From: Bacteroidota bacterium | Lineage (GTDB): Bacteria; Bacteroidota; Bacteroidia; UKL13-3 | Direction of reading: 5' to 3' | Assembly: GCA_947507965.1 (NCBI GenBank) | Contig: CANNQU010000025.1 | Span: forward strand, 1-43,567 | DNA length: 43,567 nucleotides | Part shown: piece by piece, positions 18,566 to 37,669 of the stretch | Numbering within the stretch: the stretch's first letter is position 1 | How the letters are laid out: each line of letters opens with the position of its first letter | Program-made: the position numbers and the translations under genes | Notes under the pieces: generated by a model | What the model saw: the letters and a program-made list of their open reading frames with translations, nothing else | What the model was told of the DNA's origin: nothing | Databases searched by the model: none

Positions 18566-20638
18566 CTATTGGATAACGAGTTTCCCTTTTTCTTTCACGA
18601 TATGGTTCACTATGATTTTATAATAATATAATCCACTTTGTAATTCATCTCTGCTGACCCTGATAATTTCATTAGAAGTTGAACGTGTTCTTCTCACTTC
18701 ATTGCCATTAAGATCGAAAATTGCAATTGTAATTTCACCGGGAGTACCGAATTTTCTACAATCGAAATCTACGCTAACATGAAAAGGATTGGGATAAGGA
18801 GAAAGGGTTTCACCGGCAGAAGAAGTATTGTTAGGCAGGCCTAACAAATTGTTAATGCTTCTTGTCCATACGGTGCCGGCATACATCGACGCAAATAGGG
18901 TGTTACCACTAATTATCATGGCTCGGATATCAATTGTGGCAATGCCATCGATGCCGGTGTTTGAGTAGGTCCAACTGGTTCCAGTATCTTTTGAAAAAAA
19001 GAACCCTGACCCTGTGCCGGCAAAAACCAAATTGCCAGTGCCAGTGATGGAATAGGTATATATATTAAACGGACCATTGCTCAAAGCCGTCCAGTTTAAT
19101 CCATGATTGGTTGATACAAAAACGCCTTTGGCTGTGCCAATGAATAGTGCCTTTGATGTGGCATAAATGGTGTTAACCGTGAGGTCGGTTAAGCCGGTAT
19201 TGCTCGCCGTCCACGTGTTGGCGGTATCGTTATAACGATAGAAACCACCACCGCCTGTGCCGGCATAAAGGCCTACGCTATCAAAAGCGAGGGCCCTAAC
19301 CGATTTATTAACCAGGCCAGTGGAGATATCCAACCAACTCACGGCTCGGTTGCTGGTGATGAATACCCCATAATTAGTGCCTGCGTATACTTTGGTTCCT
19401 TTTGTAAGGAGCGAGTTGCAATAAAAATAGGGGGTAGGGAAACCACTATCGCATGGCACCCAGTTTTTTCCGAAATCGTGCGAAATAATATTTCCCCCTC
19501 CATCCGACCCTGCAATTAAAGTAGAATCGAGATGTGTTATTGCCCGTATCGTACGATTGGAAATTCCATTGTATAATGGGGTCCACGAATTTCCAAGGTC
19601 GGTGGTTACATGTACACCATAGTTTCCCCAAACACCCGCAAACACACTGTTGCCAACGCTTGTAAAAGAGATGGTGGATGCCGCTTGCAAGCCGCAGAGA
19701 TTCCATTGCAATCCTGTATCTTGCGATAAAAAAACGCCTCCGTCGTTGGTGCCGGCAAAGAGTATGGAGCCATTAAACGCTAACGAAAGCACATCCCGAT
19801 TTAGCAAGCCGTTATTGATGATGGTCCAGGAAGCACCTTTATTATCCGACATACAGACTCCTCCCGAAAACGTTCCTGCAAAAACTTTGGATCCAAACGT
19901 AGTTACACATCGTACCCAGTTATTGCTTAGTCCATTTAATGTTGCATTTGATTCGGTCCAGTTGGCTCCTTTCGAACTCGAAACAAATACCCCTTTATTG
20001 CCACTCCCTGCATAAATCGTTGAATTGGAATACGCAAGCGAGTAAATATAATTACTGGTGACACCGGTATTTACCGCCACCCAACTATTATTCGTGAGGC
20101 CCGATCGAAATATTCCTCCTCCGTAGGTAGCTGCGAAAATAAAAGTGTCGCAAATAACCAGCGACCGCACGTCAATAGTTGTTAATCCTGTGCTGTAGTT
20201 GGTCCAGTTAATACCATTATTGGTACTTACAAAAACGCCACCCATGGTGCCGGCATATACTTTATTATTGATGACATCGGTAATGATGCCCCCAACATAG
20301 AAATTGGTTAAGCCGGTGCTAACATTTGTCCAGAGGTCGCCATTCGTAGTTGATACAAAAACGCCTCCACCATCGGTGCCGGCATATATCGTACTGCCAT
20401 TAAGAGATAAGGTTCCAGGTGTAAAATTACTAAGGCCTTTGTTCACCGGTTTCCAGGTAACGCCATTATTAGAGGAGCGATAGATACCACCACCCGAGGA
20501 TGCAACAAAGATATCCGTGCCTTTGAAGAGCATAGCCCTCTGAAGGCCGCCATAAGGGCCATTGCATAGTTTCCATTGGGCCAATGAAGAAAATGAAAAG
20601 AATAGGAAAACAAGAAAGGAGTAGCGCTTTATTTTCAT
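18566..20638 (-). CDS. T9SS-secreted beta-propeller protein (BNR/sortilin-like repeats)
   Basis: This 690-aa exported protein has a signal peptide (ending SSLAQ) and about 13 repeats of roughly 44 residues. Each repeat carries a GxxGGVFxSxxxGxxWxxxxxGL pattern, for example GTMGGVFVSTNNGINWTN and GTAKGVFVSTNHGLNWTALS. This is the Asp-box/BNR-like repeat that forms beta-propeller blades. The number suggests two propellers or one large assembly. The C-terminal ~80 residues are a T9SS type A sorting domain (SPYPNPF, IAIFDLNGNEV, GLYYYKI). It is probably a surface or secreted protein. No enzyme active site is recognisable, and binding or photosystem-stability-factor-like folds are alternatives. 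It follows the next cargo gene (20691-21596) by 52 bases. Confidence 0.88.
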   Translation of the reverse strand: MKIKRYSFLVFLFFSFSSLAQWKLCNGPYGGLQRAMLFKGTDIFVASSGGGIYRSSNNGVTWKPVNKGLSNFTPGTLSLNGSTIYAGTDGGGVFVSTTNGDLWTNVSTGLTNFYVGGIITDVINNKVYAGTMGGVFVSTNNGINWTNYSTGLTTIDVRSLVICDTFIFAATYGGGIFRSGLTNNSWVAVNTGVTSNYIYSLAYSNSTIYAGSGNKGVFVSSSKGANWTESNATLNGLSNNWVRCVTTFGSKVFAGTFSGGVCMSDNKGASWTIINNGLLNRDVLSLAFNGSILFAGTNDGGVFLSQDTGLQWNLCGLQAASTISFTSVGNSVFAGVWGNYGVHVTTDLGNSWTPLYNGISNRTIRAITHLDSTLIAGSDGGGNIISHDFGKNWVPCDSGFPTPYFYCNSLLTKGTKVYAGTNYGVFITSNRAVSWLDISTGLVNKSVRALAFDSVGLYAGTGGGGFYRYNDTANTWTASNTGLTDLTVNTIYATSKALFIGTAKGVFVSTNHGLNWTALSNGPFNIYTYSITGTGNLVFAGTGSGFFFSKDTGTSWTYSNTGIDGIATIDIRAMIISGNTLFASMYAGTVWTRSINNLLGLPNNTSSAGETLSPYPNPFHVSVDFDCRKFGTPGEITIAIFDLNGNEVRRTRSTSNEIIRVSRDELQSGLYYYKIIVNHIVKEKGKLVIQ

Positions 20639-21752: not shown

Positions 21753-23354
21753 TTACATCCCGCCAAAAGCGAAATACTTATTCAGCAATTCGGAGAGTGG
21801 TGCTTTCAAAACGGGTTTGGTGATGTAGTCGTTACATCCTGCTTTCAATGCCGTTTCTCTAAATTCCATTTGTCCGAAAGCGGTTTGAGCTATAATGATT
21901 ACGTCTTTATTAAAATGCCTGATTTGTTTCGTGGCTTCGTAGCCATTCATTTCCGGCATTCGAATATCCATCATAATTAAATCGATATCGGGGTTATTCC
22001 TACACACTTCTACCGCTTCTACTCCTGTTCTTGCTTTCAATGTTTCCTTGCTATAAATAGCAATGGCTTTCGTTATTAATAGCTCCGATATTTCATCGTC
22101 TTCGGCAATTAAGATTTTTATTTTTTGTAGGGTATTCATAATGGGTGGTGAATTATTGATGGTAAGGGGTTGGTTATTTTCTTTATTCGATGGAATAATA
22201 GGTAGGGTAAAATGAAAGGTACTTCCTTTTCCTAGTTCACTTTCTACCCATATTTTTCCGTTTATTTTTTTAATGAATTCTCTGCAAATGAGAAGTCCAA
22301 GGCCACTACCCGGTTCTCCATCGGTGCCTTTTTTGCTGTTGGGCAGCTCTAAACGGAAAAGGTTGTTTATGGTTTCTTGGTCCATACCAATTCCGGTATC
22401 GTTTATACTTATCTCAATAAAATAGGGGTCGAATGGTTTTGCCGATATGGTTATTATCCCTTTTTTGGGAGTAAATTTTATCGCATTGAATAATAAATTG
22501 CGTATCAAACTCCCAAAGCTTTTGCCACTCACCTCAACGATGACATCTGGAGAAATGTGACGGTGTATTTCAATTTGCTTTTCTTGCGCTTTGAATTGAA
22601 TCAATTCGAGGTTGGTTTCAAACTCATGCAATAAATTTAATGACTCTTGTTTCGGCGGTACGATGCCACGTTCTAAAATCGACCATTCCAATAAATTTTC
22701 GAGTAGATGGTAAAGTTTATCGGCCGATTTCCTCATAAGCGTAACCATTTTTTGCAATTCGACGGGAGTGAGTGTCGACAATTTTTCTTCCATCGCTTTG
22801 GAAAGCTCTAGATACCCACTGAAAGGACCTCGTAAGTCGTGAGAAATAATGGAGAAAAACTTACTCTTTGTGGCTTCTAGTTGTTTGAGTTCCTGGTTGG
22901 CTTCATTCAACTCCATGATGGTGTTCGCCAAATCATGTTTTTCTTTTATTAGCTGTCGTTGTAAATTACCTATCTGCTGATTCAGTTCATGCATGGATGC
23001 ATTTTGCAAAAGTAGTGCAGGGCTATCGATACCTCCAACAACGAGTAATTTAGTGTCGCGTAAAAAAACTTGCCCCCAAATGGAGCTATTCACGCTGGTA
23101 TAGTCGCCAATGGTAATTTCACCCTCAAAAATTAAGGCATCCGTACCCTTTAAAGATAATAGCTTCTCAAAGCTTGGATTAATAAAGCTTTTAGAGGCAT
23201 CTCCTTTAAATAAGGAATGCATGGCAGGAGAGGCGAAAAGCAAGGTTGAATCGATAGAAAATAAGGCAACAAAAAGAGATTTTGTTTTGGTCAGAGAGGT
23301 CATCAAGTCGTCCGACCATTCTGTGAGAATTTGATTGAGCCCTTGATTTTGCAT
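21753..23354 (-). CDS. PAS hybrid histidine kinase of the B12 sensor module
   Basis: This 533-aa soluble kinase has an N-terminal PAS-like sensor (about 20-110) with an IFEGEITIGD...NSSIWGQVF signature. A coiled coil (115-165), a HisKA dimerisation domain with phospho-acceptor H172 (ISHDLRGP) and an ATPase domain follow. The ATPase domain has N290, D319 in NDTGIGM and the GSGLGL lid at 349-354. A C-terminal receiver has acidic pair D419/D420, phospho-acceptor D463, T491 and K513. It should autophosphorylate and pass phosphate to its own receiver. It is the last of four tightly packed genes, 3 bases after the 153-aa protein gene. The two upstream small proteins are likely inputs. No HPt domain is fused. 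Confidence 0.93.
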   Translation of the reverse strand: MQNQGLNQILTEWSDDLMTSLTKTKSLFVALFSIDSTLLFASPAMHSLFKGDASKSFINPSFEKLLSLKGTDALIFEGEITIGDYTSVNSSIWGQVFLRDTKLLVVGGIDSPALLLQNASMHELNQQIGNLQRQLIKEKHDLANTIMELNEANQELKQLEATKSKFFSIISHDLRGPFSGYLELSKAMEEKLSTLTPVELQKMVTLMRKSADKLYHLLENLLEWSILERGIVPPKQESLNLLHEFETNLELIQFKAQEKQIEIHRHISPDVIVEVSGKSFGSLIRNLLFNAIKFTPKKGIITISAKPFDPYFIEISINDTGIGMDQETINNLFRLELPNSKKGTDGEPGSGLGLLICREFIKKINGKIWVESELGKGSTFHFTLPIIPSNKENNQPLTINNSPPIMNTLQKIKILIAEDDEISELLITKAIAIYSKETLKARTGVEAVEVCRNNPDIDLIMMDIRMPEMNGYEATKQIRHFNKDVIIIAQTAFGQMEFRETALKAGCNDYITKPVLKAPLSELLNKYFAFGGM

Positions 23355-23357
23355 GGT

Positions 23358-23819
23358 TTAATTCAGTGCATCCGGGGCCTCCAGTTTTTCATCGGATAGC
23401 TTTACAAAAATCGGGATATTAATGAGCATCCACTCATAATAGGGAGTCACTTCTTTTCCGGTCTCCTCGGAGAGTACGTCTTTTAATAAAGGTATCCATG
23501 TGCTTAGTTGGCTTGACCAATAATTAGTGGAAAAGCCATGACTTCGATAGGCTCTAAAAACCCATAACACGGTATCGACCAGAACCTCCGCGTTGTAATT
23601 TAAAAATACGGAAATCATAAATCGGGCATGGTTGGCATGATTGTCCTTCATCATGTTTAAATTGTTTACACCAACCAAGCTCTCGATTTCAGGTCGTTCG
23701 AGCATTAACAAATTCATTTCTGCAACCAATACGTCTGCTTTCCGCTGATACTCTTCGGCTGCCTTGGGGCTTACCTGTTGCAGCTTGTTGGCCGATTTTA
23801 AAATAAAAGCTTTGTCCAT
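23358..23819 (-). CDS. Uncharacterised all-helical protein between B12 sensor and kinase
   Basis: I cannot give this 153-aa soluble protein a family name. It appears fully alpha-helical, without signal or membrane segments. Notable blocks are MMKDNHANHARFM (56-68, with H61 and H64), LVDTVLWVFRAYRSHGF (80-96, with H94) and YWSSQLSTWIPLL (100-112), then PYYEWMLINIPIFVKLSD near the C-terminus. The dense aromatic and His content would suit a small-molecule or cofactor pocket or a globin-like/four-helix sensor fold, but that is inference. It starts 1 base after the cobalamin-binding gene stops and ends 3 bases before the kinase gene, so it is very probably a functional partner of both. Confidence 0.7.
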   Translation of the reverse strand: MDKAFILKSANKLQQVSPKAAEEYQRKADVLVAEMNLLMLERPEIESLVGVNNLNMMKDNHANHARFMISVFLNYNAEVLVDTVLWVFRAYRSHGFSTNYWSSQLSTWIPLLKDVLSEETGKEVTPYYEWMLINIPIFVKLSDEKLEAPDALN

Positions 23820-23820
23820 A

Positions 23821-24468
23821 TTAAAGAACGTTTTTTATATATTGTTGCGTGCTCTCCAAGTTGGGTTGGTAAACTACATTTTGGTATTTTAAAAGCACCT
23901 CTTGTCCGCCGTGAGTAAATGCTTGCCCACCTACCAGAATTGGAATGGTGGGGAATTCGATTTGCGTTTTTTGGATCGTTTTTTCCAATGCAGGTAGGTT
24001 AAAATACAGGCTTAATGAAAAAGCAAAGATATTCGGTTTTTTTGTTTTTGCAAATTGGAATAATTCATCGGTAGGCGTATTTGCACCGAGGAAAAATGTA
24101 TTCCATTCGTTCATTTCAAAAACATCGCCAATCATTTTTATTCCTATTTGATGACTTTCGTTTTCCACGCAAGCAAGGATGGCTGCTTTATTATTTTTCT
24201 TATCCGAAATCAAATTAAAATGCAACTCATTTAGTATCGATTCAACGATAGCGGATGCCAAATGTTCGGTAGCCACACTAATTTTGTTATACTCCCAAAG
24301 CTCCCCAATTTTATACAGTGAAGTTTTTAGTACATTTTCATAAATATCGGGTATTGATAGACCGTAAGTTTGAAGCAATTGTATTTTCTGTGAGCAGGAT
24401 ATACGATCGCCCATAAGTAAGGAGCCGAAAAAATCCTTATACTGATATTGCGTTAATGTGTCTTTCAT
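23821..24468 (-). CDS. Stand-alone cobalamin (B12)-binding sensor protein, CarH-like
   Basis: This 215-aa soluble protein contains the two cobalamin-sensing domains of CarH-like regulators but no MerR DNA-binding domain. The helical cap (about 10-88) has the Wx9EH signature: W58, then nine residues, then E68-H69. The Rossmann-like domain (about 92-215) has ExHxxG (E104, H106, G109), where the His is the lower cobalt ligand, plus SLSL (151-154) and VGG (179-181). The residue after W58 is Glu59, not the His that CarH uses as the light-induced second cobalt ligand. It overlaps the 797-aa kinase gene by 4 bases (ATGA), so input to the kinases is the natural inference. A corrinoid methyltransferase role is less likely, as no methyltransferase is nearby. 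Confidence 0.88.
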   Translation of the reverse strand: MKDTLTQYQYKDFFGSLLMGDRISCSQKIQLLQTYGLSIPDIYENVLKTSLYKIGELWEYNKISVATEHLASAIVESILNELHFNLISDKKNNKAAILACVENESHQIGIKMIGDVFEMNEWNTFFLGANTPTDELFQFAKTKKPNIFAFSLSLYFNLPALEKTIQKTQIEFPTIPILVGGQAFTHGGQEVLLKYQNVVYQPNLESTQQYIKNVL

Positions 24469-26858
24469 GGCATTTTTAAAGGAAAATGCTTATTTAATAA
24501 TTCGGTGAATATTGCTTTTTGCATTGGTTTCGTGAAGTAATCATTGCAGCCTGCCTGTAGCGCCTTCTCTTTATCTTCTTCCATTGCGTAAGCGGTTTGT
24601 GCTATGATAATTATTTTGGTATTAAACGCTCGAATTTGTTTGGTGGCTTCATACCCCGACATTACGGGCATCTTCACATCCATCAAAATGAGATCGAGAT
24701 CCGGGTTGTTTCTGCAAATTTCCACGGCTTCCAATCCTGTTTGAGCTATTAAAATTTCACGGCTATAATTTTTCACCGCCATCGTCATTAACAGTTGAGA
24801 TATTTCGTCGTCTTCGGCGATTAAAATCTTCAAATTTTTAATTTTATTCTCCTTCTCTGTTTCGGAAGCTGCCGAGCTCGACATCGCTATTTCTTTTGTT
24901 GCGGGGTTGATGAGTATCGTGAAATGAAATTCAGAACCTTTTCCTAGCTCACTCTTTACCCAAATTTGGCCACCCATCATTTCTACATAGGCCTTTGAAA
25001 TGGATAACCCCAACCCGGCACCTTCATAGTTTCTGGTGAGCGACTCATTACCTTGCCTAAATCGTTCGAAAATAAGATCTTTCTGCTCATCATGAATTCC
25101 TACCCCGCTATCTTTAACGTAGAAATTTAGGTGTGTATCATTCGTTTGAACTCCAATTTCGATACTACCTTGAAAGGTAAATTTGATCGCATTTTTAACC
25201 AAATTCGTTAGAATGGCATCTAGCTTTTCTCTGTCAACCAATACAACGGCATTCTTTTCGTCTATTTTTTTATCGAATATTATCGATACCCCTTTTTTCT
25301 CGATTTCCGGTTTAAAAAAATTAGAAATATAATTAATCGATTCATTGATATTCGTCTCTTGTAATAAAACATCCTTTTGCCCAGCCTCTACTTTTGAAAT
25401 GGTAATAATATCGTTGATGGTTGTCAGCATCCTCTTCCCGCTTTTCTCAATAATACGGATGTATTCCTGTTGTTCTTTCCCCGATAAATGGGGTTCTTTA
25501 AGTAGTTCGGTGAAACCAAGAATACCATTCATAGGCGTTCTGATTTCGTGGCTCATATTGGCCAGGAATGCTGTTTTGAGCCGGTCGCTTTCTTCGGCAT
25601 GTTCTTTGGCTTCGCGAAGTTCCAGTTCTCTCTTTTTTCTGGAAGTGATATCGCGAAAGGTAATAACGGCACCAGTAATTAAGCCATTTTCTACGATCGG
25701 TAAACTACTAAATTCGGCATGAAATCCGGTTCCGTTTTTCCTGATAAAATATTCTTCTCCACGATGCTTTTTGCCATCCCTTAGCGTTTCGTAAATCGGA
25801 CATTTTTCTTCCGGATAGGGTGTGCCATCGGGGTATGAATGATGAAAAGTTGAATGGCTATGTTTTCCAATCATCTCCGGTGCCAAATGCCCTAGCATTA
25901 TTGCTGCCATTGGATTTACAAATGTGTGCCTCCCTTCTTTATCGAGGCCTATAATGCCTTCGTCGGCTACCTCTAAAATGATTCGTAATTCATTATTTGA
26001 TTGGGCTAATAACGCCTCTGCTTTTTTTCGTTTGGTAATGTCGGATGCTAAGCTAAGTATGGCTTCTTTTTCTTGCCATTGAATGCGTTTTGCCGTTACC
26101 GAGAGTGGAAATTTCGACCCATCTTTACGATAATGCTCTACTTCGAATAGGGCCTCCCCCTGGTCTTTTATTTGTTTTACCCTCGACTCGAAAAGTTCTC
26201 TGCTCACCGGCACATCAATTCCTTTAACGCCAATCGAAAAAAGCTCCTGTTCGGTGTAGCCATGGTATTGTAATGTTTTCTTATTAAACCACAGAAAGTT
26301 GCCTTCGAAATCATGGATGGTAACCGATGCGGGAGTGGCGTCGAGAATATTTGCTAGCAACTGAATTTGTTCCTTTTCTTTTTTCTTCCGACGGGAACTA
26401 TAGTCCCATGCTTTTTTGTTAATTAGCAGGAATGAAAGCCCAAAAAGCATTAAAAGAAGAGCGCTCGTCGGCTCCATTTGCTCGTTGTGGTTTGCTCCTT
26501 CAGGCAGCTTATGGTCATTAATAAACAGCTCCTCTAAGCCAATGGAAAAGTTAAACAGATATTCAGAGAACGAGATGGCACTAATGAGAAAAACGGCAAA
26601 TGACGAGAAATAGGAAAAACCAATTCTCTTTTTTGAGATCATATCCTGGTTTTTCGGGTAAACTAAAATTAACGCAATTCCGGAAAGAAAAAAACAAATA
26701 GCCGTAATCACTTTCATACTCACCCATATTGGAAAAAGACTTTTTAACGGGATGCTATCAACCCCCCATCCAACCAGAACAAGAATGCCGATGGATGCCA
26801 TAAGATAGCCTAAAGCCAGTGCTAGAATTTTGAAGTTATTTGTCTTTAATGATGCCAT
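24465..26858 (-). CDS. Membrane PAS-PAS hybrid histidine kinase
   Basis: This 797-aa inner-membrane kinase has four predicted membrane helices (about 10-30, 45-67, 80-98, 130-147). Two PAS domains follow (165-280 and 288-408), then HisKA with H437 (NMSHEIRTPMNG), an ATPase domain (about 545-650, VKDSGVGI and GAGLGLS) and a C-terminal receiver (676-795) with phospho-acceptor D727 and K777. The second PAS domain has a His/Pro-rich loop (HSHSTFHHSYPDG). It is the first gene of the four-gene unit and its stop overlaps the B12-protein start. The kinase core is closely similar to those of the 756-, 869- and 1179-aa proteins. No exact -7 box was found in the 223 bases upstream. Confidence 0.93.
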   Translation of the reverse strand: MASLKTNNFKILALALGYLMASIGILVLVGWGVDSIPLKSLFPIWVSMKVITAICFFLSGIALILVYPKNQDMISKKRIGFSYFSSFAVFLISAISFSEYLFNFSIGLEELFINDHKLPEGANHNEQMEPTSALLLMLFGLSFLLINKKAWDYSSRRKKKEKEQIQLLANILDATPASVTIHDFEGNFLWFNKKTLQYHGYTEQELFSIGVKGIDVPVSRELFESRVKQIKDQGEALFEVEHYRKDGSKFPLSVTAKRIQWQEKEAILSLASDITKRKKAEALLAQSNNELRIILEVADEGIIGLDKEGRHTFVNPMAAIMLGHLAPEMIGKHSHSTFHHSYPDGTPYPEEKCPIYETLRDGKKHRGEEYFIRKNGTGFHAEFSSLPIVENGLITGAVITFRDITSRKKRELELREAKEHAEESDRLKTAFLANMSHEIRTPMNGILGFTELLKEPHLSGKEQQEYIRIIEKSGKRMLTTINDIITISKVEAGQKDVLLQETNINESINYISNFFKPEIEKKGVSIIFDKKIDEKNAVVLVDREKLDAILTNLVKNAIKFTFQGSIEIGVQTNDTHLNFYVKDSGVGIHDEQKDLIFERFRQGNESLTRNYEGAGLGLSISKAYVEMMGGQIWVKSELGKGSEFHFTILINPATKEIAMSSSAASETEKENKIKNLKILIAEDDEISQLLMTMAVKNYSREILIAQTGLEAVEICRNNPDLDLILMDVKMPVMSGYEATKQIRAFNTKIIIIAQTAYAMEEDKEKALQAGCNDYFTKPMQKAIFTELLNKHFPLKMP

Positions 26859-27081
26859 TTTTTTATCGATAACCTTTCTTTTTAGCTTATTTATAACCGT
26901 TTATTGCGGCATCATGATTTTTTTTAAACTTTAGAACCAGAAGTGTTGGTATAATCTTGTAAAAATATTGAACTGAAAGGCTACTAAAAATGACGCTTGT
27001 CAGTTTGTAATATGATTTATGTTATACCCGTTAGCACAGATTGGAAATGGGTAGGCTATGGTGGGGGATTAGCAGTGGAAG

Positions 27082-29352
27082 CTAGAAACGAGTGTAGGGA
27101 ATGGTGAAATAAAATATAGAGCCTTTCCCCAATTGGCTTTCCACCCATATTTCCCCACCCAATAATTCCACATACGCTTTCGATATCGACAAGCCCAATC
27201 CTGCTCCTTCATAGTTACGTGTGATGGATTCGCTCCCTTGCCGAAACCTTTCGAAGATAAATTCCTTCTGATGCGAAGGGATGCCATCGCCGGTATCTTT
27301 TACAAAAAACTCGAGAAACGCCCCTTTTATATTACAACCTATTTCGATGCATCCTTTAGACGTGAATTTAATGGCATTCCTTACGATGTTATTTACTATG
27401 ATCGAAAGTTTTTCCTTGTCGGTTTTTAGTATAATATCTGTTTTTAAGAGCGGCATTTTACATTCGAGGGATATGCCTTTTTTCGTCGTCTCTGATTTAT
27501 AGTTGGCACATAATATTTTAAGTTCAACGTTTACATTAATATGAGAAAGATCAAGGCTCATATCTCCCGATTCTACTTTTGAAATAGTTACAATATCGTT
27601 AATAATGGAAAGCATTCGGGTGCAGCTCTCTTCAATAGTTTGAATGTATTCGCTCTGTTCTTCCTTGGAGAGCCGGGGTTGTTTCATTAGCTCTGCAAAT
27701 CCGAGAATGCCATTCATGGGTGTTCGAATTTCATGACTCATATTACTAAGGAACGCCGATTTCAAACGGTCGCTTTCTTGGGCTCGCTCTTTGGCATGAA
27801 TGAGCTCTTTCTCGGTTCTTTTACGTTCCGAAATATCTTCCTTAACTCCCAAATAATGGGTTATGATGCCATTGGAATCAAAGATGGGTGCAATGATGGC
27901 CAACTCCCAATAGAGCTCTCCATTTTTTTTACGGTTAAGAAACTCTCCACTCCATTCTTTTCCTCCGGTAATATTATGCCAAAGCTGCCTGTATTCTTCT
28001 TTGGTTGTATGCCCCGACTTGAGCATCCGTGGGTTTTTGCCAATAATTTCTTCGATTCGGTATCCGGTGGTATCGATAAACTTCTGATTTGCATATTGAA
28101 TATTACCATTGATGTCGGTAATAAGCGTTGATGCAGGACTTTGTTCAACGGCTTGCGACAATTGGATTAGCTTTGCCTCCGCTAAGTTTCTTAGCGTAAT
28201 ATCACGAATAATTAATTGCACTGCCGGCTTGTTTTCATGTTGTATGGCAATGGCTATAACCTCTACCTCCACGGTGGAGCCATCGAGTCGAATGAATTTT
28301 TCTTTCTCTATGGGTAAGGGCTTCACATCAATGGCAATTTTTTTCATGCGTTCAATTACCCGAGCCCGATTTTCTTCACTTACAAATTGAATGACCGACT
28401 TGCCAAGGAGCTCTTCTTTCGTTTTTGCGGCCATTAATTTAAGGCATTCGTTGTTTACAAAAGTAATTCGGCCATCCACGTAAATTACAATGGAATCGGG
28501 AGAATTCTCCACTAACTCCCGATATTTCTCTTCACTCTCTCGTAATTTATTTTCGGCCTGTTTTCTTGAAGTTATGTCGCGAGCGGAGCTTCTAATAGCA
28601 GGTTCACCATCATAAATGATACTCGACCCTTGAATTTCTACTTCAATCTCTTGTCCATCCAATCGAATGAACTTGGCTTCAATTAAGGGTAAGATATTTC
28701 CTATTTTGGTGATCTTTTCTATTTTGCTTGCAATAATATGATGGTAGTTGGGGTGGGTTAAATCGAGTACGTTTCTCCCCACTAAGTCATTCGCTTCTAC
28801 GGCACCCAACATTCGAATGGCAGCAGGATTAACGAAAAGTAATTTTCCATCACGATGCACCACAATGGCCACGGGCGAAGTGTCAATTAGAGAGCGATAA
28901 CGTTCTTCACTTTCTACGATGGCCTTCTCTGCCATCTTTTGGTTGGTGAGGTCGCGAATGGAGGTAACCCGTACCATTTTGCCATCTAATGGAATCATCT
29001 TCCCATTGATTCTACAAGGAAATTTGGTGCCATCTTTACGCAAGGCCATGGCTTCATACGGTTTTTCAAAGCCGGTAAGAATGTTAGCCATTACTTTTTC
29101 TCGGTCTTCAAAGGCAATAAAATCGGTTCCTTTTTTTTCAGTTGCTTCCTTGTTGGTGTAGCCAAACATTTTTTCGGCAGCGTGGTTTTGCTCAATACAG
29201 TAACCGTTTGAGCTAATAAAGAGGGCTTCAAAAGAGGCCTCACTAAGCCTTAAATACTTCGCTTCTAAAGTTTCAAGTTCGCTATTCTTTGCTTCTAGCG
29301 TTTTAACTTTTTGTTGTAGAATTTCAATCTCAGTCTGATTCCTTGGCTTCAT
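27082..29352 (-). CDS. Soluble four-PAS histidine kinase without receiver
   Basis: This 756-aa protein has a short N-terminal coiled coil and four PAS domains (about 35-140, 148-265, 272-388, 398-512). HisKA with H540 (NMSHEIRTPMNG) and a C-terminal ATPase domain ending in GAGLGLSISKAYVELLGG and FYFTIP follow. Unlike its neighbours it has no receiver domain. It could therefore phosphorylate a separate receiver, for example on the 563-aa protein or one of the hybrids. No membrane segment or signal peptide is visible, so it senses a cytoplasmic signal. It lies 133 bases from the upstream kinase gene and 223 from the downstream one, so it may be transcribed separately. Confidence 0.92.
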   Translation of the reverse strand: MKPRNQTEIEILQQKVKTLEAKNSELETLEAKYLRLSEASFEALFISSNGYCIEQNHAAEKMFGYTNKEATEKKGTDFIAFEDREKVMANILTGFEKPYEAMALRKDGTKFPCRINGKMIPLDGKMVRVTSIRDLTNQKMAEKAIVESEERYRSLIDTSPVAIVVHRDGKLLFVNPAAIRMLGAVEANDLVGRNVLDLTHPNYHHIIASKIEKITKIGNILPLIEAKFIRLDGQEIEVEIQGSSIIYDGEPAIRSSARDITSRKQAENKLRESEEKYRELVENSPDSIVIYVDGRITFVNNECLKLMAAKTKEELLGKSVIQFVSEENRARVIERMKKIAIDVKPLPIEKEKFIRLDGSTVEVEVIAIAIQHENKPAVQLIIRDITLRNLAEAKLIQLSQAVEQSPASTLITDINGNIQYANQKFIDTTGYRIEEIIGKNPRMLKSGHTTKEEYRQLWHNITGGKEWSGEFLNRKKNGELYWELAIIAPIFDSNGIITHYLGVKEDISERKRTEKELIHAKERAQESDRLKSAFLSNMSHEIRTPMNGILGFAELMKQPRLSKEEQSEYIQTIEESCTRMLSIINDIVTISKVESGDMSLDLSHINVNVELKILCANYKSETTKKGISLECKMPLLKTDIILKTDKEKLSIIVNNIVRNAIKFTSKGCIEIGCNIKGAFLEFFVKDTGDGIPSHQKEFIFERFRQGSESITRNYEGAGLGLSISKAYVELLGGEIWVESQLGKGSIFYFTIPYTRF

Positions 29353-29485
29353 AAATTGATGCGTCGAATTTTATTTGCGCTTTGGTTAGCTATTGTATCT
29401 TGTTTTCATATTTTTATTCATGCTATCTAGTCGGTCTGAAATTATTAGTGAAGCAAGATATTCTTTTTTTTGTGGGATGCTATTT

Positions 29486-32095
29486 TTATTTTTTAAAGTA
29501 TTGACGAATAAGGTTGAGTAGCATTTCTGTTTTAATGGGTTTAGCAATATAGTCAGTGCATCCTGCAGCCAAAGAAAGCTCTTGATCACCCTTTAAGGCA
29601 AAGGCGGTTTGAGCAATAATAACGATGGTTTTATTAAACTTCCTTATTTGCCGGGTGGCTTCATACCCATCCATTTCCGGCATTCTCATGTCCATCAAAA
29701 TTAAATCTAGATCTAGGTTGTTACGGCAAAGTTCAACCGCTTCCATTCCGGTACGAGCAATGCGTATTTTTGAGCCGATGTTCTTGACCATTCTGGTAAT
29801 CAATAGTTCCGACATCTCATCGTCTTCTGCAATTAAGATGTTGATTTTTTTGAGTTCTGATACCTCTCGATGGAGAGCCACTAAATCATTCGTTTGACGT
29901 GTTACAGCGTTTGCTGATTCTTCGTCTTGGGATGGCAACGTAAAATAAAAAGTAGAACCCATTCCAACCGTGCTCTCTAACCAAATTTTACCGCCCAACA
30001 TTTCTACATAAGCCTTTGTAATGGCTAACCCCAATCCGGCCCCTTCATAATTTCGGGTTAGCGATTCGCTTCCTTGCCTGAATCGATCGAAGATGAATTC
30101 CATCTGCTCCGGCGCAATTCCATTTCCGGTATCTTTGATGAAGAACTCGATCCATGGCCCCTTTTTAACACACCCCATTTCAATACTACCCTGTGATGTA
30201 AATTTTATCGCATTTTTTACCAAATTGGTTAATATGGCATACACTTTTTCTTTATCGGTATGATGTATTGCTTCGGCAGGCTTCAACTTCACATCGAAAA
30301 TTGTTTTAATCCCTTTTTTTGCGGCCTCATATTGGAAGAAGGTATAAATATATTGTATTTGATCATTCATATTGGAGTTGGTTAAATGAATTTCCATTTG
30401 ACCGGATTCGAGTTTTGAAATACTCATAATATCGTTGATGATATTCAACATTCGTTCACCACTTTTTTCTATAATTTGAATGTAATCTTGCTGGTCTTCA
30501 CCACTTAGGTGAGGCTCCTTAAGTAATTCGGCGAACCCCAAAATGCCGTTCATGGGTGTTCTTATTTCATGGCTCATATTGGCCAGAAAGGCCGATTTTA
30601 AACGATCGCTTTCTTCGGCATGTTCCTTGGCTTTGAGCAGTTCTTGCTCTGATTTTTTACGTTCGGTAATATCTTCCTTTATGGCGAGGTAATTGGTTAT
30701 CTCCCCTTTTTTGTTTTTAATGGGAGAAATGTTCGCCGACTCCCAAAAGAGCTCCCCATTTTTTTTCTTATTGTGAAATTCCCCCGACCATTCTCCACCA
30801 TTAGATATCAATTGCCACATTCGTTTGTATTCTTCTAACGACGTTTCACCCGACTTTAAAATTCTAGGATTTTCTCCCAGTACTTCATTTAAGGTGTAGC
30901 CGGTAACGTCAAGAAATTTAGGGTTCACGTATTCAATAATACCTTCCGTAGAGGTAATTACAATGGAAACCGGACATTGTTCCACCGCTTGCGAAATTTT
31001 ATGAAGCGACTGTTCAGCTGAAATACGCTCTTTTAAAGCAATCTCATACTCGAGTGCATAGGATATGTTGGCCGATATTTTTTCAAGCAAGATGATTTCT
31101 TCTTCTGATGAAAAAAAGTTTGTGTTGCCGCTGTATAATGTGAAGGCACCGATGACCGCTCCGCGAAGTTTTAGGGGAAGTGCAATGGATGAATGGAATC
31201 CTCTTTTTAATCCTTCCTGTCGCCAAGGAATCATTTGCATATCGGTTGAAAAATCGTTCGAAAAGCACACCCTGTTTTCTCGCATAGCAGTTCCTGTAGG
31301 GCCTCTGCCTTCAGGTATATTGGCGATGGATATTTTTGGAATTACACTTAAATATCCGTCTTCAATTCCAGCCCAACACGTTGGCGTTAGCGTTTGTGTT
31401 GCCTCATCAAGCAACCCAATCCAGCTCATACGGAACTTACCCGCTTCCACCACAATACGGCATAATTCCTGAAATAGAAATTGACGATTATTATTAAAAA
31501 GTATTAATTCATTAATTTGACTATAAATTGAATGAATTCGATTTAGTTTGGATAGTTCGTCTTCGTTCGCCTTTCTGGAAATATTGTCATTCTGAAGATC
31601 CTCCAACATATTCAGCGCAGCAATATTGGCCTCCTTTAGTTCTTGCGTTTGTTTCTCAATTTTATGAGAAAGATAACTGTTTATATCCCGCTTTTCGAGA
31701 TTTGAAGTTCTGATTTTTATCATCGTTCGTATTTGAACCATGAGTTCGAATGGGTCGATGGGTTTCGTGAGAAAGGCCTCTCCACCCACTTCCAAGGCTT
31801 GCAGCCGGCTTTCACGGTCGTCTTGATTAGCGGTAATGAAAATAACGGGTATGTCAAATAGTTTTTTGTCGGCTTTTAGTTTTTTGCAAACCATTAAACC
31901 ATCCATCTCAGGCATTACGATGTCGAGCAATATAACATCCGGCTCTTCAGCTTTTATAATCGTCATAGCGGAAGCACCGCTGGTAGCCGAAAATAATTGA
32001 GCATCGGGGAACGATTCCATTAAAATGGCTTGAAGACTAATAAGATTATCCATATTATCGTCTATGGATATTATTTTAATTATTCTGTTTTCCAT
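29486..32095 (-). CDS. REC-GAF-PAS hybrid histidine kinase
   Basis: This 869-aa soluble protein starts with a receiver domain (1-125; DD12-13, D58, K111) and a coiled coil. A GAF domain (about 185-350, with GRGPTGTAMRENRV), a PAS domain (365-480), HisKA with H509, an ATPase domain (about 610-725) and a second receiver at the C-terminus (about 745-867; MDMRMPEMDG) follow. With a receiver at each end it could accept phosphate from another kinase and relay it onward. Its gene overlaps the end of the upstream kinase gene by 20 bases, which indicates co-expression. The kinase core is nearly the same as in the 1179-aa protein. Confidence 0.93.
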   Translation of the reverse strand: MENRIIKIISIDDNMDNLISLQAILMESFPDAQLFSATSGASAMTIIKAEEPDVILLDIVMPEMDGLMVCKKLKADKKLFDIPVIFITANQDDRESRLQALEVGGEAFLTKPIDPFELMVQIRTMIKIRTSNLEKRDINSYLSHKIEKQTQELKEANIAALNMLEDLQNDNISRKANEDELSKLNRIHSIYSQINELILFNNNRQFLFQELCRIVVEAGKFRMSWIGLLDEATQTLTPTCWAGIEDGYLSVIPKISIANIPEGRGPTGTAMRENRVCFSNDFSTDMQMIPWRQEGLKRGFHSSIALPLKLRGAVIGAFTLYSGNTNFFSSEEEIILLEKISANISYALEYEIALKERISAEQSLHKISQAVEQCPVSIVITSTEGIIEYVNPKFLDVTGYTLNEVLGENPRILKSGETSLEEYKRMWQLISNGGEWSGEFHNKKKNGELFWESANISPIKNKKGEITNYLAIKEDITERKKSEQELLKAKEHAEESDRLKSAFLANMSHEIRTPMNGILGFAELLKEPHLSGEDQQDYIQIIEKSGERMLNIINDIMSISKLESGQMEIHLTNSNMNDQIQYIYTFFQYEAAKKGIKTIFDVKLKPAEAIHHTDKEKVYAILTNLVKNAIKFTSQGSIEMGCVKKGPWIEFFIKDTGNGIAPEQMEFIFDRFRQGSESLTRNYEGAGLGLAITKAYVEMLGGKIWLESTVGMGSTFYFTLPSQDEESANAVTRQTNDLVALHREVSELKKINILIAEDDEMSELLITRMVKNIGSKIRIARTGMEAVELCRNNLDLDLILMDMRMPEMDGYEATRQIRKFNKTIVIIAQTAFALKGDQELSLAAGCTDYIAKPIKTEMLLNLIRQYFKK

Positions 32096-35057
32096 AAAGT
32101 AAATAATTTATTGTTTCCAAAAGTAATGGGGCATCCAAGGGTTTGGATATATAGCCATCAAAGCCTTGCGAGAGAATTGTTTCTTGGTCATGTTGCAGAG
32201 CACTTGCACTTACAGCCACTATGGGTATGTTTTTTAGTGTATCATCGCTCCTGATTTCCTTTAGGGCTTCGATGCCATCGATACCGGGTAATGCAATATC
32301 CATGAGAACGAGGTTCGGTTGGTGTTTTTTGATGAGGGCTAATCCTTCTAATCCATCGGTATCCTCTAAAAGTATAAAATCATGGGCTAGCAATGCTTTC
32401 ATCGTAATCATATTGTCTGTATTGTCTTCTACAATCAATAAGGTTGGTTTGCCATCAATTTTTTGCAGTGTTTTCTGGTCATGCGTTGGTTCCATTACGT
32501 TCTCATCCACCATAGCATTTACAGCCTGAAGCAATTCTTTTAAATTGACATCGCCTTTCTGTATATATTGATGGATATGGTTACGACTCAAAAAGGATAG
32601 CTCTTCTTTGGTAATATGCTTTGCTGTTAAAATCAATACGGGGATATCGCCCGTGTCTCTGTTGCTACGTATGGTTTTAAGCACTTCAAAGCCATCCATT
32701 CCAGGCATCATCAGATCCAGTATAATGGCATCGGGCATCGTGTTATTGATGGTGTCAAGTGCTTCCTTCCCGTTACGAGCGATAAGCACCTGATACCCAT
32801 TTTCATCCAAAACATCATTCAGTTGAATGATGGCAGGTTCGCTATCTTCCACTAATAAAATAGTTTTAAGCGTAGCGTTTATGGCCTTTTTTGGAGCTGT
32901 TATTGGATTGGAATACGGACGATATTTATTGGTTACGGGTTGGATTATCTCGTTTGCATTGGCCGGCCTTAAGGGCACGATAAGCTCGAATTCAGAGCCA
33001 TAGCCGAGGGTGCTCTTCGCATTAATTTCTCCGCCTAAGAGGGTGGCATATTTTTTAGCTATGGCTAATCCCAAACCACTACCACCAAATTTTCTGGAGG
33101 TGCTGCCATCGGCTTGCCTAAACTCATCGAAAATATGGGGAATACTATCTTCAGAAATACCAATGCCCGTATCGGTTATTTTAATACGTACCTTATTCTC
33201 GGTAGCGGTTATGCTCACCTCCACTTTCCCAACTTCGGTGAATTTTACGGCGTTTCCAATTAAATTTTGTAAAATATGACGGAGCTTACTTGAATCAGAG
33301 ATCATTAAAATTGGCGAATCGGGTATATTATACACTAACTGAATGTTTTGCTGCATGGCCTGTGGTTGAATCATACTCACCATATCGGCAATCAAGGAGT
33401 TTATATTGATTTCTGTCAGCATCATTTCTTCTTTGCCCGATTCAATTCGAGAAAGATCAAGGATGTCGTTGATCAACGACAGCAGATGTTTGCCATTGCG
33501 CTCAATAACTTCCAGATAGCTGTATTCATCTTCTGGTATCTTTTTCACGAGCCGTCGGCCAAGAACTCCCGATAAGGCGATAACCGAATTTAATGGCGTT
33601 CGAAGTTCGTGACTCATATTGGACAAGAAATTTGTTTTTAGACGGCTTACTTCTTGTACTTGTTTTTTTTGGTGTTCCAATAAAGTATTCTGTGCCAATA
33701 ATTCGGTTGCCAGCGTGTGTAACTCTGCTTCTTTGGTTTCTAATTCTTGATTCTGTATCGCTAATGTTTTGGTCAGGTTAATCATTTTATTAGCGGCTGA
33801 AATGCCTTCGATTCGTGCCGATAAGGTAAACAGAATGTGATTAATCAGTTCGATCGATTCCTTGGTAAAGCTTCCAAGATTGGCAAGCGAAATGATCGCA
33901 ATGGTTTCCTCCTGCGCAATAATTGGAATGGTAAGAATCTCCTGTGGAATAAAGGCGCCTGTAACGGAATGAAAAATGAAACGCGAATTCGTTGGAATGT
34001 TTTTAATATGTTGTATTTCTTTTTTTATGAGTACGGCGCCAAATTCTCCCTCTAAATTTTCTGCCGAAAAAGATTGCCGAGCTTGCTGGTCTAGTCCTAT
34101 GGATACAAAATGATGGTATGTTTTCTTCGTGTCGTCTAACCTATAAACAGCTGCGTTGGCAGCGTTGGTATTGGATGCCAGCGCCAGAAGTATTTCACGA
34201 AAAAACTCCTTTATTTCATAATTACCTAGCATTAAATCAGCCAACGAAGCAAGTTTTTTTTCTTGTTCCATATTGCTTTGTAAACTATGGTTGAGTGCAT
34301 TTATTGAATCCGACAATACACCATATTCATTACCTGAGCGATAACTACTTCGAGCGCTCCAATCGCCATCTTTAAAACGCTGTGTTGTTTCGATAAGTAC
34401 GGTTAATGGATTGCGAATGTTTCGGATTAAAATGATACTTATCATAATCGAAAGAAGCAAGATGGCAAGGAGTGTCAACCCTAATTGTAGCTTTGTTTGA
34501 GTGTGAATGTTTATAGAATTTCGCTGAAATTCTTCTGCCTTTTTTATAGCAAATTGGTCTATTTTACCTAGGACTGCTACTAATCGGTCTCGGTTTATTT
34601 TTACTGTTCCATTTACACCTATATCCTTCTTTGCTAGTTCTGGTTTTCCTGCTTGTATTGATTTGATGGTTTCATCTCGTGAGGTTTTCCATTGTATAAA
34701 TGCCGACTGTGCGTCATCAATATCATCAGAATGCCCTAGATAACTTGTCTTTAATAATTCAAACTGTTGTTGCGCCTCCATAGTCGCGGTCTCCATGGTT
34801 TGAATACATTCCAATTTATCCTTCTCCTTATTGGCCAGTATCAAATCTCGCAGGGCAATTTGCATGACATCAATCTTTAATCGGAGTTTGCCAATATTAT
34901 TTCTCGTACTATAGGGGTGCCCATAGAAATCTTCCGATAGTTGTTGGAGCTTGCCGCTTTGAAGGTAAGCCAGTGTGCCTTGCATTGCAACGAATAAAAC
35001 AATGGTTGTGAGTGCTACTTTTAGTTGCGTGCTAATTTTTAAATCGTTTAACTTCAT
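32076..35057 (-). CDS. 4HB-MCP/HAMP/GAF hybrid histidine kinase with two receivers
   Basis: From the ATG at 35057 the product is 993 aa. The frame is open to 35126, but that would overlap the CheR gene by 55 bases and lacks homology. A first membrane helix, a ~160-residue periplasmic four-helix bundle like chemoreceptor sensors and a second membrane helix (near 195-212) open the protein. HAMP (LIRNIRNPLTVLI), GAF, a coiled coil, HisKA with H483 (NMSHELRTPLNS), ATPase (ITDTGIGI, GGSGLGLAI) and two tandem receivers (LDLMMPGMDG; MDIALPGIDG) follow. It belongs to a different kinase subgroup (HELRTP) from its neighbours. It lies 14 bases after the CheR-like gene, so its chemoreceptor-like sensor may matter for CheR. 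Confidence 0.92.
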   Translation of the reverse strand: MKLNDLKISTQLKVALTTIVLFVAMQGTLAYLQSGKLQQLSEDFYGHPYSTRNNIGKLRLKIDVMQIALRDLILANKEKDKLECIQTMETATMEAQQQFELLKTSYLGHSDDIDDAQSAFIQWKTSRDETIKSIQAGKPELAKKDIGVNGTVKINRDRLVAVLGKIDQFAIKKAEEFQRNSINIHTQTKLQLGLTLLAILLLSIMISIILIRNIRNPLTVLIETTQRFKDGDWSARSSYRSGNEYGVLSDSINALNHSLQSNMEQEKKLASLADLMLGNYEIKEFFREILLALASNTNAANAAVYRLDDTKKTYHHFVSIGLDQQARQSFSAENLEGEFGAVLIKKEIQHIKNIPTNSRFIFHSVTGAFIPQEILTIPIIAQEETIAIISLANLGSFTKESIELINHILFTLSARIEGISAANKMINLTKTLAIQNQELETKEAELHTLATELLAQNTLLEHQKKQVQEVSRLKTNFLSNMSHELRTPLNSVIALSGVLGRRLVKKIPEDEYSYLEVIERNGKHLLSLINDILDLSRIESGKEEMMLTEININSLIADMVSMIQPQAMQQNIQLVYNIPDSPILMISDSSKLRHILQNLIGNAVKFTEVGKVEVSITATENKVRIKITDTGIGISEDSIPHIFDEFRQADGSTSRKFGGSGLGLAIAKKYATLLGGEINAKSTLGYGSEFELIVPLRPANANEIIQPVTNKYRPYSNPITAPKKAINATLKTILLVEDSEPAIIQLNDVLDENGYQVLIARNGKEALDTINNTMPDAIILDLMMPGMDGFEVLKTIRSNRDTGDIPVLILTAKHITKEELSFLSRNHIHQYIQKGDVNLKELLQAVNAMVDENVMEPTHDQKTLQKIDGKPTLLIVEDNTDNMITMKALLAHDFILLEDTDGLEGLALIKKHQPNLVLMDIALPGIDGIEALKEIRSDDTLKNIPIVAVSASALQHDQETILSQGFDGYISKPLDAPLLLETINYLLYGKQNN

Positions 35058-35071
35058 ACCGTTTAAAATAA

Positions 35072-35902
35072 TTAGTTGTGTTTTTCTTTTATTTGAAATA
35101 GGGCAGAGGAAGGAAAAACTTCGCAAAAATCAGCGTTGGCAAGTATTTCACGTTCTGTTTCACCGGTCACCAAAAAGCCCTGGTTAACCAAACTCTTACG
35201 TACTTTGGAAAGTATTTTCATTCTAAATTCAGGCTTGTAATAGAAGAGAAGGTTGGCGCAAAATACCAAGTCGAAGCTGCCAAAAATACTTGCCGATGGT
35301 ACGCTTAATTTCTTATCAAATAAATCGAAGGTAGAGAATGCTATGTTTTTTCTTAAAGCCGAATCAATCGTGTAGGTATCTCCATGCTTTACAAACCAAT
35401 CGTTGCCTCGTTTAATGCTTACCTTACTCACGGCCGATGCTTCATAATGCCCTTGGATGGCTTTATCAATTTGAACGCTGCATTGGTCGGTTGCATATAT
35501 AGCGTACTTTAAGTCTTTCGCCATCTTTCGTTTTAATTCTTCCATTAGTATCGCTAAACTATAGGCTTCTTGTCCTGCGGCGCATGCGGTACACCAAATT
35601 CTGATTTCTTTTTTTTGAAGGGCTAACAAGGGTAATACGATTTGTTCTATTACCGAAAAAGTAAGCGGGTTACGAAAGAATTCGCTGTAGTTGTTATGAA
35701 GTACGCTTTCAAAATACAACGCCTCCGCTTTGTTTTGTTTGGTAAATTGGCTATAGCTATTGGTGGTTTTAAAATTCATATTTATACTTCTTTTCACCAA
35801 AGCGGAGTGAAGAAAAGTAGGGTCGTATTTTGAGATATCTATCTCATGAGCGCTCCAAAGGGCTTCCGCGATATCATTGTTTTCCAGGTTCATTATCTTC
35901 AC
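35072..35902 (-). CDS. CheR-type protein methyltransferase-like protein
   Basis: This 276-aa cytoplasmic protein has the CheR layout. An N-terminal helical part is followed by FFRNPLTF (75-82), SAM-binding IWCTACAAGQEAYSLA (102-117), YATDQ (136-140), FCANLLFYY (214-222) and GFLVTGETE (242-250). CheR enzymes methylate glutamates on chemoreceptors using S-adenosylmethionine. Two usually conserved positions differ. The family GEE is GQE here, and FCRN is FCAN (Ala instead of Arg at 216), so activity is uncertain. No CheB, CheA, CheW or true chemoreceptor signalling domain is in the window. Its direct neighbour is a kinase with a chemoreceptor-like sensor. Confidence 0.85.
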   Translation of the reverse strand: MKIMNLENNDIAEALWSAHEIDISKYDPTFLHSALVKRSINMNFKTTNSYSQFTKQNKAEALYFESVLHNNYSEFFRNPLTFSVIEQIVLPLLALQKKEIRIWCTACAAGQEAYSLAILMEELKRKMAKDLKYAIYATDQCSVQIDKAIQGHYEASAVSKVSIKRGNDWFVKHGDTYTIDSALRKNIAFSTFDLFDKKLSVPSASIFGSFDLVFCANLLFYYKPEFRMKILSKVRKSLVNQGFLVTGETEREILANADFCEVFPSSALFQIKEKHN

Positions 35903-35922
35903 TTTTGGTTTTTAACTATGGC

Positions 35923-37614: not shown

Positions 37615-37669
37615 AACGATGGTTTAGCGTTAAGGTATTATGGTTATCGAGCATTGATCGTAAAATGTT

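Follow-up and report, generated by a model that had tools for sequence, protein, structure and literature searches.

Gene organisation of the locus

The window, by which we mean the whole stretch of 43,567 nt analysed here, carries on its minus strand a cluster in which the genes of a 797-aa kinase, a 215-aa B12 protein, a 153-aa predicted globin (the third gene) and a 533-aa kinase follow one another. The features of this cluster are listed below in the order of transcription, together with the evidence for each.

24465..26858, minus strand: 797-aa PAS-PAS-HisKA-HATPase_c-receiver hybrid kinase, first gene of the cluster (ORF, Pfam)
23821..24468, minus strand: 215-aa cobalamin-binding protein with B12-binding_2 and B12-binding domains, CarH/photocobilin type (Pfam, PDB relatives, motifs)
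23358..23819, minus strand: 153-aa globin-fold protein, a predicted photoglobin-like subunit (ORF, AlphaFold2, fold matches)
23616..23645, minus strand: DNHANHARFM, residues 59–68, in predicted helix 54–73 (conservation, alignment, AlphaFold2)
23532..23576, minus strand: DTVLWVFRAYRSHGF, residues 82–96, predicted helix 77–92 (conservation, alignment with SasPcob)
23505..23525, minus strand: NYWSSQL, residues 99–105, start of predicted helix 98–115 (conservation, AlphaFold2)
21753..23354, minus strand: 533-aa hybrid kinase with a PAS-like domain, a long helix (111–164), HisKA, HATPase_c and a receiver (Pfam, AlphaFold2)
22860..23354, minus strand: kinase input region HKN (PAS plus helix), the N-terminus of the 533-aa kinase (recurs next to the globin in further genomes)

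The 153-aa ORF runs from an ATG at 23819 to a TAA at 23358 on the minus strand, and the plus-strand reading of 23358–23819 contains 10 stops. The genes of the 797-aa kinase and the B12 protein share 4 nt, and gaps of 1 nt and 3 nt separate the globin gene from the B12 gene and the 533-aa kinase gene, respectively, which confirms the position between a B12 protein and a kinase given in the preliminary description. Differences between the globin gene and its relatives at codon positions 1/2/3 number 47/20/78 for L003, 39/21/89 for L004 and 49/29/92 for L006. Together with the relatives described below, these counts show the 153-aa protein to be real and under selection. Promoter-like sites are fewer than in shuffled sequences (10 vs 17.4), and terminator-like sites are somewhat more frequent (10 vs 5.7).

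A long one-strand run of signalling genes surrounds the B12–globin pair (21753–41209, minus strand). It comprises hybrid kinases of 533, 797, 869 and 1179 aa and a 756-aa PAS kinase, as well as a CheR-domain protein (35072–35902) and a PAS/receiver protein (35923–37614), both on the minus strand. The same strand encodes a 613-aa protein that combines TPRs with the catalytic domain of a class III adenylate/guanylate cyclase (12071–13912) and a 690-aa short-repeat protein (18566–20638), whose tail, read by eye, resembles a Bacteroidota sorting signal and which adjoins a 301-aa Por_Secre_tail protein.

Distribution and conserved residues of the family

The 153-aa protein has no match in Pfam or in NCBIfam, the latter searched with the window member alone. 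As its AlphaFold2 model is all helical, the earlier description as a short helical protein without family assignment stands. A PDB sequence search with the protein and with the family profile returned nothing at E ≤ 10, and comparison of the family profiles with the PDB gave no globin at E ≤ 10. One further profile search produced two PDB rows at E of about 1, both entitled 'Fusion glycoprotein F0', which we attribute to chance; the scattered single-member Pfam hits among the relatives also look like chance.

A profile search for homologs and their neighbours, as proposed in the preliminary description, was performed in one scan of a genome contig collection. It yielded 28 relatives of 40–69% identity, mostly full length, with a conserved linkage that is described below. 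Their record titles include Bacteroidetes/Bacteroidales, Prolixibacteraceae, Ignavibacteriae, Desulfobacteraceae/Desulfobulbaceae, Magnetococcales, Competibacteraceae, Thiohalocapsa, Chitinispirillum and Aminicenantes, among others. L013 is titled Desulfobulbaceae, but by sequence it belongs with the members of the Bacteroidota type, possibly reflecting a binning error. The host genome of the window contains a single globin copy; one further fragment matches at E 0.19, which we attribute to chance. The distribution is patchy: the globin is found in 1 of 64 genomes of the family of the host, in 5 of 395 genomes of a sample of its phylum, taken to be Bacteroidota (the host included), and in 12 of 297 genomes of a phylum draw around Desulforhopalus (the centre included), which we take to represent Desulfobacterota. 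The chance-like L031 and L032 from the family of the host (101-aa ORFs, E 0.005–0.007) were left out of all counts, and the doubtful G737 (E 9e-4, two stops), one of the 12 in the Desulforhopalus draw, was dropped.

Conservation was examined in a main alignment of 29 members (28 relatives plus the window protein) and in an extended alignment of 39 rows, fused proteins included, which represents 38 distinct sequences as L053 repeats L021 from the same genome. Eighteen residues are invariant in the main alignment: R42, G50, D59, N60, N63, F67, V81, D82, T83, L85, W86, V87, F88, Y91, F96, Y100, Y128 and F138. Nine of them, G50, N60, F67, W86, V87, Y91, F96, Y100 and Y128, are invariant in all 38 distinct sequences, while D59 is kept in 34 of the 38 and is otherwise replaced by Glu (2), Ala (1) or Asn (1). 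The three blocks that had been described as strongly conserved therefore do form the conserved core, but their histidines vary: H61 is retained in 23/29, H64 in 24/29 and H94 in 16/29, with Arg in place of H94 in the other 13. A cofactor pocket over H61, H64 and H94, as the preliminary description had envisaged, is not supported, because none of the three is invariant and five members (L021, L024, L025, L027 and L028) have substituted both H61 and H64. The window protein lacks Cys, as do 16 of the 29 members.

Linkage, natural fusions and correlated divergence

Gene neighbourhoods were compared across 32 loci without near-duplicates, 28 from the contig scan and four from the phylum sample. A B12 gene is present in 31 of the 32, in 28 of them no more than 200 nt away and in the same orientation. 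Matches to the kinase input region occur in 29 (the whole domain in 24), as counted with a profile whose iterative construction drew on the same loci. Homologs lacking B12 or kinase neighbours, which the preliminary description would count against its idea, were looked for in this set, and the cases found are marginal. The 5.9-kb contig of L029 is devoid of a B12 gene, and the kinase region is absent in L007, L027 and L029, the L007 contig ending 304 nt past the globin gene. Given this conserved linkage to the B12 protein and the kinase input region, a coupling factor or sensor subunit, the role first suggested for the 153-aa protein, is its best reading.

The gene order varies among the loci. 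The kinase sits between the B12 gene and the globin in L023, L028 and L037, and the globin precedes the B12 gene in L021, L024 and L025. Six genomes from the Desulforhopalus draw (L056, L057, L058, L060, L061 and L062) encode a single protein in which the globin is followed by the B12 domain, and the same arrangement is found in Ilyobacter polytropus (WP_013388897.1). Further globin–B12 copies (L066, L068 in G552, and L065/L069 in G739:C56) are apparently truncated or else spread over different frames or contig ends. In L027 (Desulfofustis glycolicus), the B12 partner is only a 117-aa ORF (5253–5606) that overlaps an extended globin ORF in another frame, which suggests a broken or frameshifted copy.

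The three parts diverge in parallel. The correlation of divergence is 0.87 between globin and B12 protein (27 loci), 0.86 between globin and kinase region (21 loci) and 0.89 between B12 protein and kinase region (21 loci), and for each pair 0 of 2000 permutations reached the observed value. This pattern fits co-inheritance of the three parts as a unit and may stem from joint transfer of the cluster, not from binding.

Kinase input region

Above the Pfam cut-offs, the 533-aa kinase contains HisKA, HATPase_c and Response_reg and no PAS domain. In the AlphaFold2 model of residues 1–165 (pLDDT 88.5, pTM 0.65), a PAS-like domain leads into a long helix. The best match of this model is the PAS domain of PpsR at Z 9.4 (rmsd 3.7 over 100), and the listed rows are mostly PAS or LOV by title. 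The N-terminus is thus predicted to adopt a PAS fold, and the label of PAS kinase given to this protein earlier finds its basis in the model rather than in Pfam. The helix part alone is matched in L021, L023, L024, L028 and L037; helices of this kind may be generic signalling helices. In L022, a GGDEF-motif protein takes the place of the kinase as carrier of the input region, and the annotated GGDEF protein that directly follows the Ilyobacter fusion downstream begins with a weak relative of the input region (E 3.7e-5). Since kinase and GGDEF are exchanged in this way, the constant element appears to consist of the B12 protein, the globin and the input region, with a variable output.

B12 partner protein

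The 215-aa partner contains W58-x9-E68-H69, E-x-H106 and GANTP at 128, and Pfam detects no DNA-binding domain in it. Its best PDB relatives are 8jbs and the photocobilins 8j2y, 8j2x and 8j2w, with CarH further down. W-x9-EH together with E/DxH is present in 30/30 full-length stand-alone partners (window included) and in 6/6 fused B12 domains counted; outside these six, W-x9-EH was seen by eye in the fused Ilyobacter domain. According to PMC10979010, W-x9-EH keeps the adenosyl group in place in CarH and photocobilins, and photolysis of this group serves as the signal. The corresponding residues are replaced in the alignment with methionine synthase (8ssd). The SignatureFinder signature of light-responsive cobalamin-binding domains, as summarised in PMC11796333, combines GxxW, EH, GxxH and GxxxP. 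Among the 30 stand-alone partners, GxxW and EH are each kept in 30/30 and GxxxP in 28/30, while only two of the 30 retain the G of GxxH. The window partner has NxxH in place of GxxH and fails the four-motif signature, which may be why our literature search found no paper naming the clade.

Predicted fold of the 153-aa protein

AlphaFold2 on the 29-member alignment gave a confident model (pLDDT 93.5, pTM 0.87). The best 50 of 668 Foldseek rows at E ≤ 10 without exception bear titles of globins or phycobiliproteins, with a best E of 0.035 and none below 0.001. With VIA-align, the best match is smURFP (Z 13.5, rmsd 2.7 Å, 128 aligned); further matches include the globin domain of DosC (Z 12.9), the B. 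pertussis globin-coupled sensor (Z 12.8) and allophycocyanins (about 12). The photocobilin SasPcob scores Z 11.6 as 8j2x (2.8 Å, 118 aligned) and 11.4 as 8j2w. The protein is thus likely to have a globin/phycobiliprotein fold, although this assignment is not proven, since helical models may reach Z of about 13–14 from helix arrangement alone. Nor do the Z values single out the photocobilin branch, as the photocobilins score no better than heme globins. The structure prediction of the protein alone, which the preliminary description had called for, provided a globin-like fold.

Profile comparisons with known photocobilin-type globins are not significant. Against plasmid-borne members, hhalign gave P of 0.002–0.29 (probability 0.2–14%). 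The extended family profile gave P of 0.0065 against five Streptomyces/Nonomuraea plasmid globins, which served as a stand-in for the original photoglobin alignment. The known-type groups themselves, the plasmid Streptomyces/Nonomuraea and the Azospirillum/Skermanella globins, match each other at a probability of 96.7%. The weak profile alignment is in register around W86, which falls on Trp296 of SasPcob and is invariant in 38/38; Asp270 of SasPcob lies opposite N60 if no gap is allowed and opposite D59 if one gap is allowed. SasPcob was tied in via a further alignment, and the numbering of Trp296 and Asp270 follows our own count. Residues 56–59 read MMKD, and the 153-aa protein contains neither the CXQD motif of photoglobins nor the RGMC motif of BBAG-2 globins. 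The predicted helix 77–92, taken as F by helix order, carries no conserved His, which makes binding of the heme-globin type unlikely.

Ligand supply in the host genomes

The search for a bilin source covered heme oxygenase (PF01126), HugZ and HutW. PF01126 is present in 2 of 43 host genomes (2/33, then 0 of 10 more), of which completeness was given for five, many of the others being MAGs. Compared with the background of 43/395 in the sample of the host's phylum, the globin hosts are therefore not enriched in heme oxygenase. In both positive hosts, the gene lies about 1.0–1.1 kb from a phytochrome PHY domain, and this nearby phytochrome would explain its presence. HugZ scored above the cut-off in 0/43 hosts and in none of 14 control genomes either. 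All 33 genomes searched for HutW match the model at E ≤ 1e-20, and 1/33 passes the cut-off; the sub-cut-off matches are presumably kin of HemN/HemW, and an anaerobic route to a linear tetrapyrrole via HutW is unsupported. In contrast to the bilin enzymes, an AdoCbl-making adenosyltransferase was found in 30/33 hosts (PF01923 in 23/33 and PF02572 in 7 of the remaining 10), including the host of the window. This genome, 99.93% complete, has one adenosyltransferase, no heme oxygenase and no PHY domain. Named isolates without a heme oxygenase match include Alkaliflexus imshenetskii, Puteibacter caeruleilacunae, Desulforhopalus vacuolatus and Desulfofustis glycolicus, which are anaerobic or facultative.

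Because nearly all searched hosts are without heme oxygenase, the clade is somewhat more likely to be independent of self-made biliverdin than not, and its globin would be bilin-free or carry another ligand. Bilin binding by the 153-aa globin is suggested by the modelled fold and made doubtful by the missing heme oxygenase; biliverdin scavenged from outside or supplied by an unrecognised enzyme is a possible source.

Relation to known B12 and globin systems

Photocobilins are a recent photoreceptor class in which a B12 domain is fused to a bilin-binding globin. SasPcob (8J2W/8J2X) and AbDPcob (8J2Y) share with the window module a CarH-type B12 domain (W-x9-EH, E/DxH) and a helical globin, predicted in our case, as well as the B12-then-globin order and the link to a signalling output. 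In the portions of PMC10979010 on SasPcob, Asp270 contacts three coplanar biliverdin rings, Trp296 contacts the D ring and the corrin, no Cys linkage is involved, and the dimer becomes a monomer in light. For AbDPcob, the same portions describe repression of the fused cyclase by AdoCbl in the dark and a more than 10-fold increase of apparent turnover in light. The differences are substantial: photocobilins are one polypeptide, whereas the window has two separate genes and its fused relatives are reversed (globin then B12); the window globin is too divergent for the sequence searches made; the output is a PAS hybrid kinase; and nearly all hosts are without heme oxygenase. The window module was not classed as a photocobilin, since the single-polypeptide architecture is lacking and since membership of its globin in the photoglobin/phycobiliprotein type, predicted from the fold but unlinked by sequence profiles, and bilin binding are both no more than candidate features. 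By analogy, it nevertheless probably works like one.

Photocobilin-type proteins with the reverse order of SasPcob, an N-terminal globin and a C-terminal B12 domain, were also observed in L042 (Azospirillum thermophilum plasmid), L045 and L047–L049. A histidine kinase ORF beside the A. thermophilum protein has a weak 29-position match to the input-region helix (E 5e-4). On Streptomyces plasmids (L041, L043, L050 and L052), photocobilin-type genes lie beside PP2C or SpoIIE phosphatase genes, with STAS genes as well in L041, L043 and L050.

Schneider et al. 2022 (CSBJ 20:261-273) reportedly described the photoglobin family as non-heme globins associated with B12 domains and signalling genes. The window protein shares this association, with at best MMKD where photoglobins have CXQD. 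Our literature search found no paper naming this clade, and the Schneider 2022 set may already include some of its members. In the relevant passages of PMC10151467, BBAG-2 globins of Myxococcales and others are associated with B12-binding proteins in hosts that have heme oxygenase, and two of them were shown to bind biliverdin as photoinert holoproteins. The same passages assign CXRD/CXQD to bilin globins, CXQD to photoglobins and RGMC to BBAG-2. The window clade shares the B12-protein association of BBAG-2, whereas the window protein has neither RGMC nor Cys and nearly all hosts of the clade are without heme oxygenase. CarH/LitR photoreceptors have the AdoCbl pocket motifs in common with the window partner, which differs in having no DNA-binding domain and a kinase as its neighbour. 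Although smURFP is the best fold match, the window protein differs from it and from phycobiliproteins in the absence of a Cys for covalent bilin attachment, of a sequence match and of a light-harvesting context. RsbR is a non-heme globin in signalling; with it and with heme globin-coupled sensors, the window protein would share the globin fold as a sensor or scaffold, while differing in the absence of a conserved proximal His and in being a separate gene tied to a B12 protein.

Proposed mechanism and alternatives

Our preferred account, with a probability of about 0.6, is a photocobilin-like light receptor in split form: the 153-aa protein would serve as its globin subunit, bind to the B12 domain and pass the state of that domain on to a dedicated kinase. 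The gene, the conservation of its product, the three-gene linkage, the correlated divergence, the natural fusions and the AdoCbl-pocket motifs of the partner are all observed, as is the globin fold in the predicted model. From these we infer a globin–B12 complex with AdoCbl and light as its input; the direction and sign of signalling and the ligand of the globin would follow the photocobilin analogy. In this mechanism, the 215-aa protein would bind AdoCbl in a CarH-type pocket, and the globin would dock on it like the C-terminal globin of photocobilins, covering the corrin edge. In the dark, the assembly of AdoCbl-loaded B12 protein and globin may keep the PAS-helix kinase in one state. Light would break the Co–C bond with loss of the adenosyl group, or AdoCbl occupancy would shift, and the assembly would be reshaped. 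This change would be read by the PAS-plus-helix region at the input end of the neighbouring kinase, or of a GGDEF protein in a few relatives. Several points weigh against this account: the sequence searches made do not link the globin to known photoglobins, its fold match depends on a predicted model, GxxH has lost its G in most partners, the helix of the kinase region may be generic, the correlated divergence may stem from joint transfer, and several hosts are anaerobic sediment bacteria, for which light is no obvious signal.

Among the alternatives, a module that senses the AdoCbl level or the redox or ligation state of B12 instead of light, with the globin as a structural transducer, is a serious but distinctly less probable account. 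Several named hosts are anaerobes, most hosts encode an adenosyltransferase, and GxxH of the light signature is altered in most partners. Against it, W-x9-EH, which sections of PMC10979010 describe as adenosyl-holding in CarH and photocobilins, is kept in 30/30 partners, and its residues are replaced in the aligned methionine synthase (8ssd).

It is likewise unlikely, to a slightly greater degree, that the module is a two-chromophore split photocobilin whose globin binds biliverdin, scavenged or from an unrecognised enzyme, and so adds red-light sensitivity. The nearest folds, smURFP and allophycocyanin, are bilin-binding; D59 ends MMKD, a possible counterpart of the CXRD/CXQD given for bilin globins in passages of PMC10151467; W86 aligns with Trp296 of SasPcob in the weak profile alignment; and the B12-associated BBAG-2 globins bind biliverdin, though the same passages report their holoproteins to be photoinert. 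This account is opposed by the scarcity of heme oxygenase (both cases beside a phytochrome) and by the HugZ and HutW results, by the lack of Cys in the window protein and in many members, and by D59 itself, which is Glu, Ala or Asn in 4/38 and gives way to N60 rather than an Asp facing Asp270 in the gapless alignment.

We consider it rather improbable that the protein is a new helical adaptor for the B12 protein and kinase whose globin likeness is a chance helix arrangement. This would agree with the lack of any sequence-level match and with a Foldseek E of 0.035 at best, but not with the uniform titles of the best 50 Foldseek rows, with a partner B12 domain of the type known to pair with such globins, or with a B12–globin gene order in the window that mirrors the arrangement of domains in SasPcob. 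It is very improbable that the protein is a heme or gas sensor of the globin-coupled-sensor type: heme sensors (DosC, B. pertussis) are among the best fold matches, but none of the 18 residues invariant in the 29 members is a His, the predicted helix 77–92 has no conserved one, and H94 is Arg in 13/29.

Implications

Returning to the split photocobilin-like receptor, what appear to be the parts of a photocobilin occur here as separate genes, are fused elsewhere in reverse order, and are tied to one kinase input region. As a tentative extension, to which we give somewhat less than even odds, the relatives from Bacteroidota, sulfate-reducer-type, Fusobacteriota and other genomes would form a distinct clade of B12-coupled globins that work without biliverdin made by heme oxygenase, either as a lid and transducer on a B12 light switch, in which the globin has lost its chromophore or never had one, or with a linear or other tetrapyrrole made without oxygen. 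These findings raise the questions of whether a B12 light switch operates in anaerobes and whether a bilin-type globin can function without a bilin. If this extension holds, anaerobes would possess a B12 photoreceptor module served by its own PAS kinase, and the module would offer a living model for the origin of bilin-binding globins. A three-part split receptor would, moreover, be a useful kit for light control.
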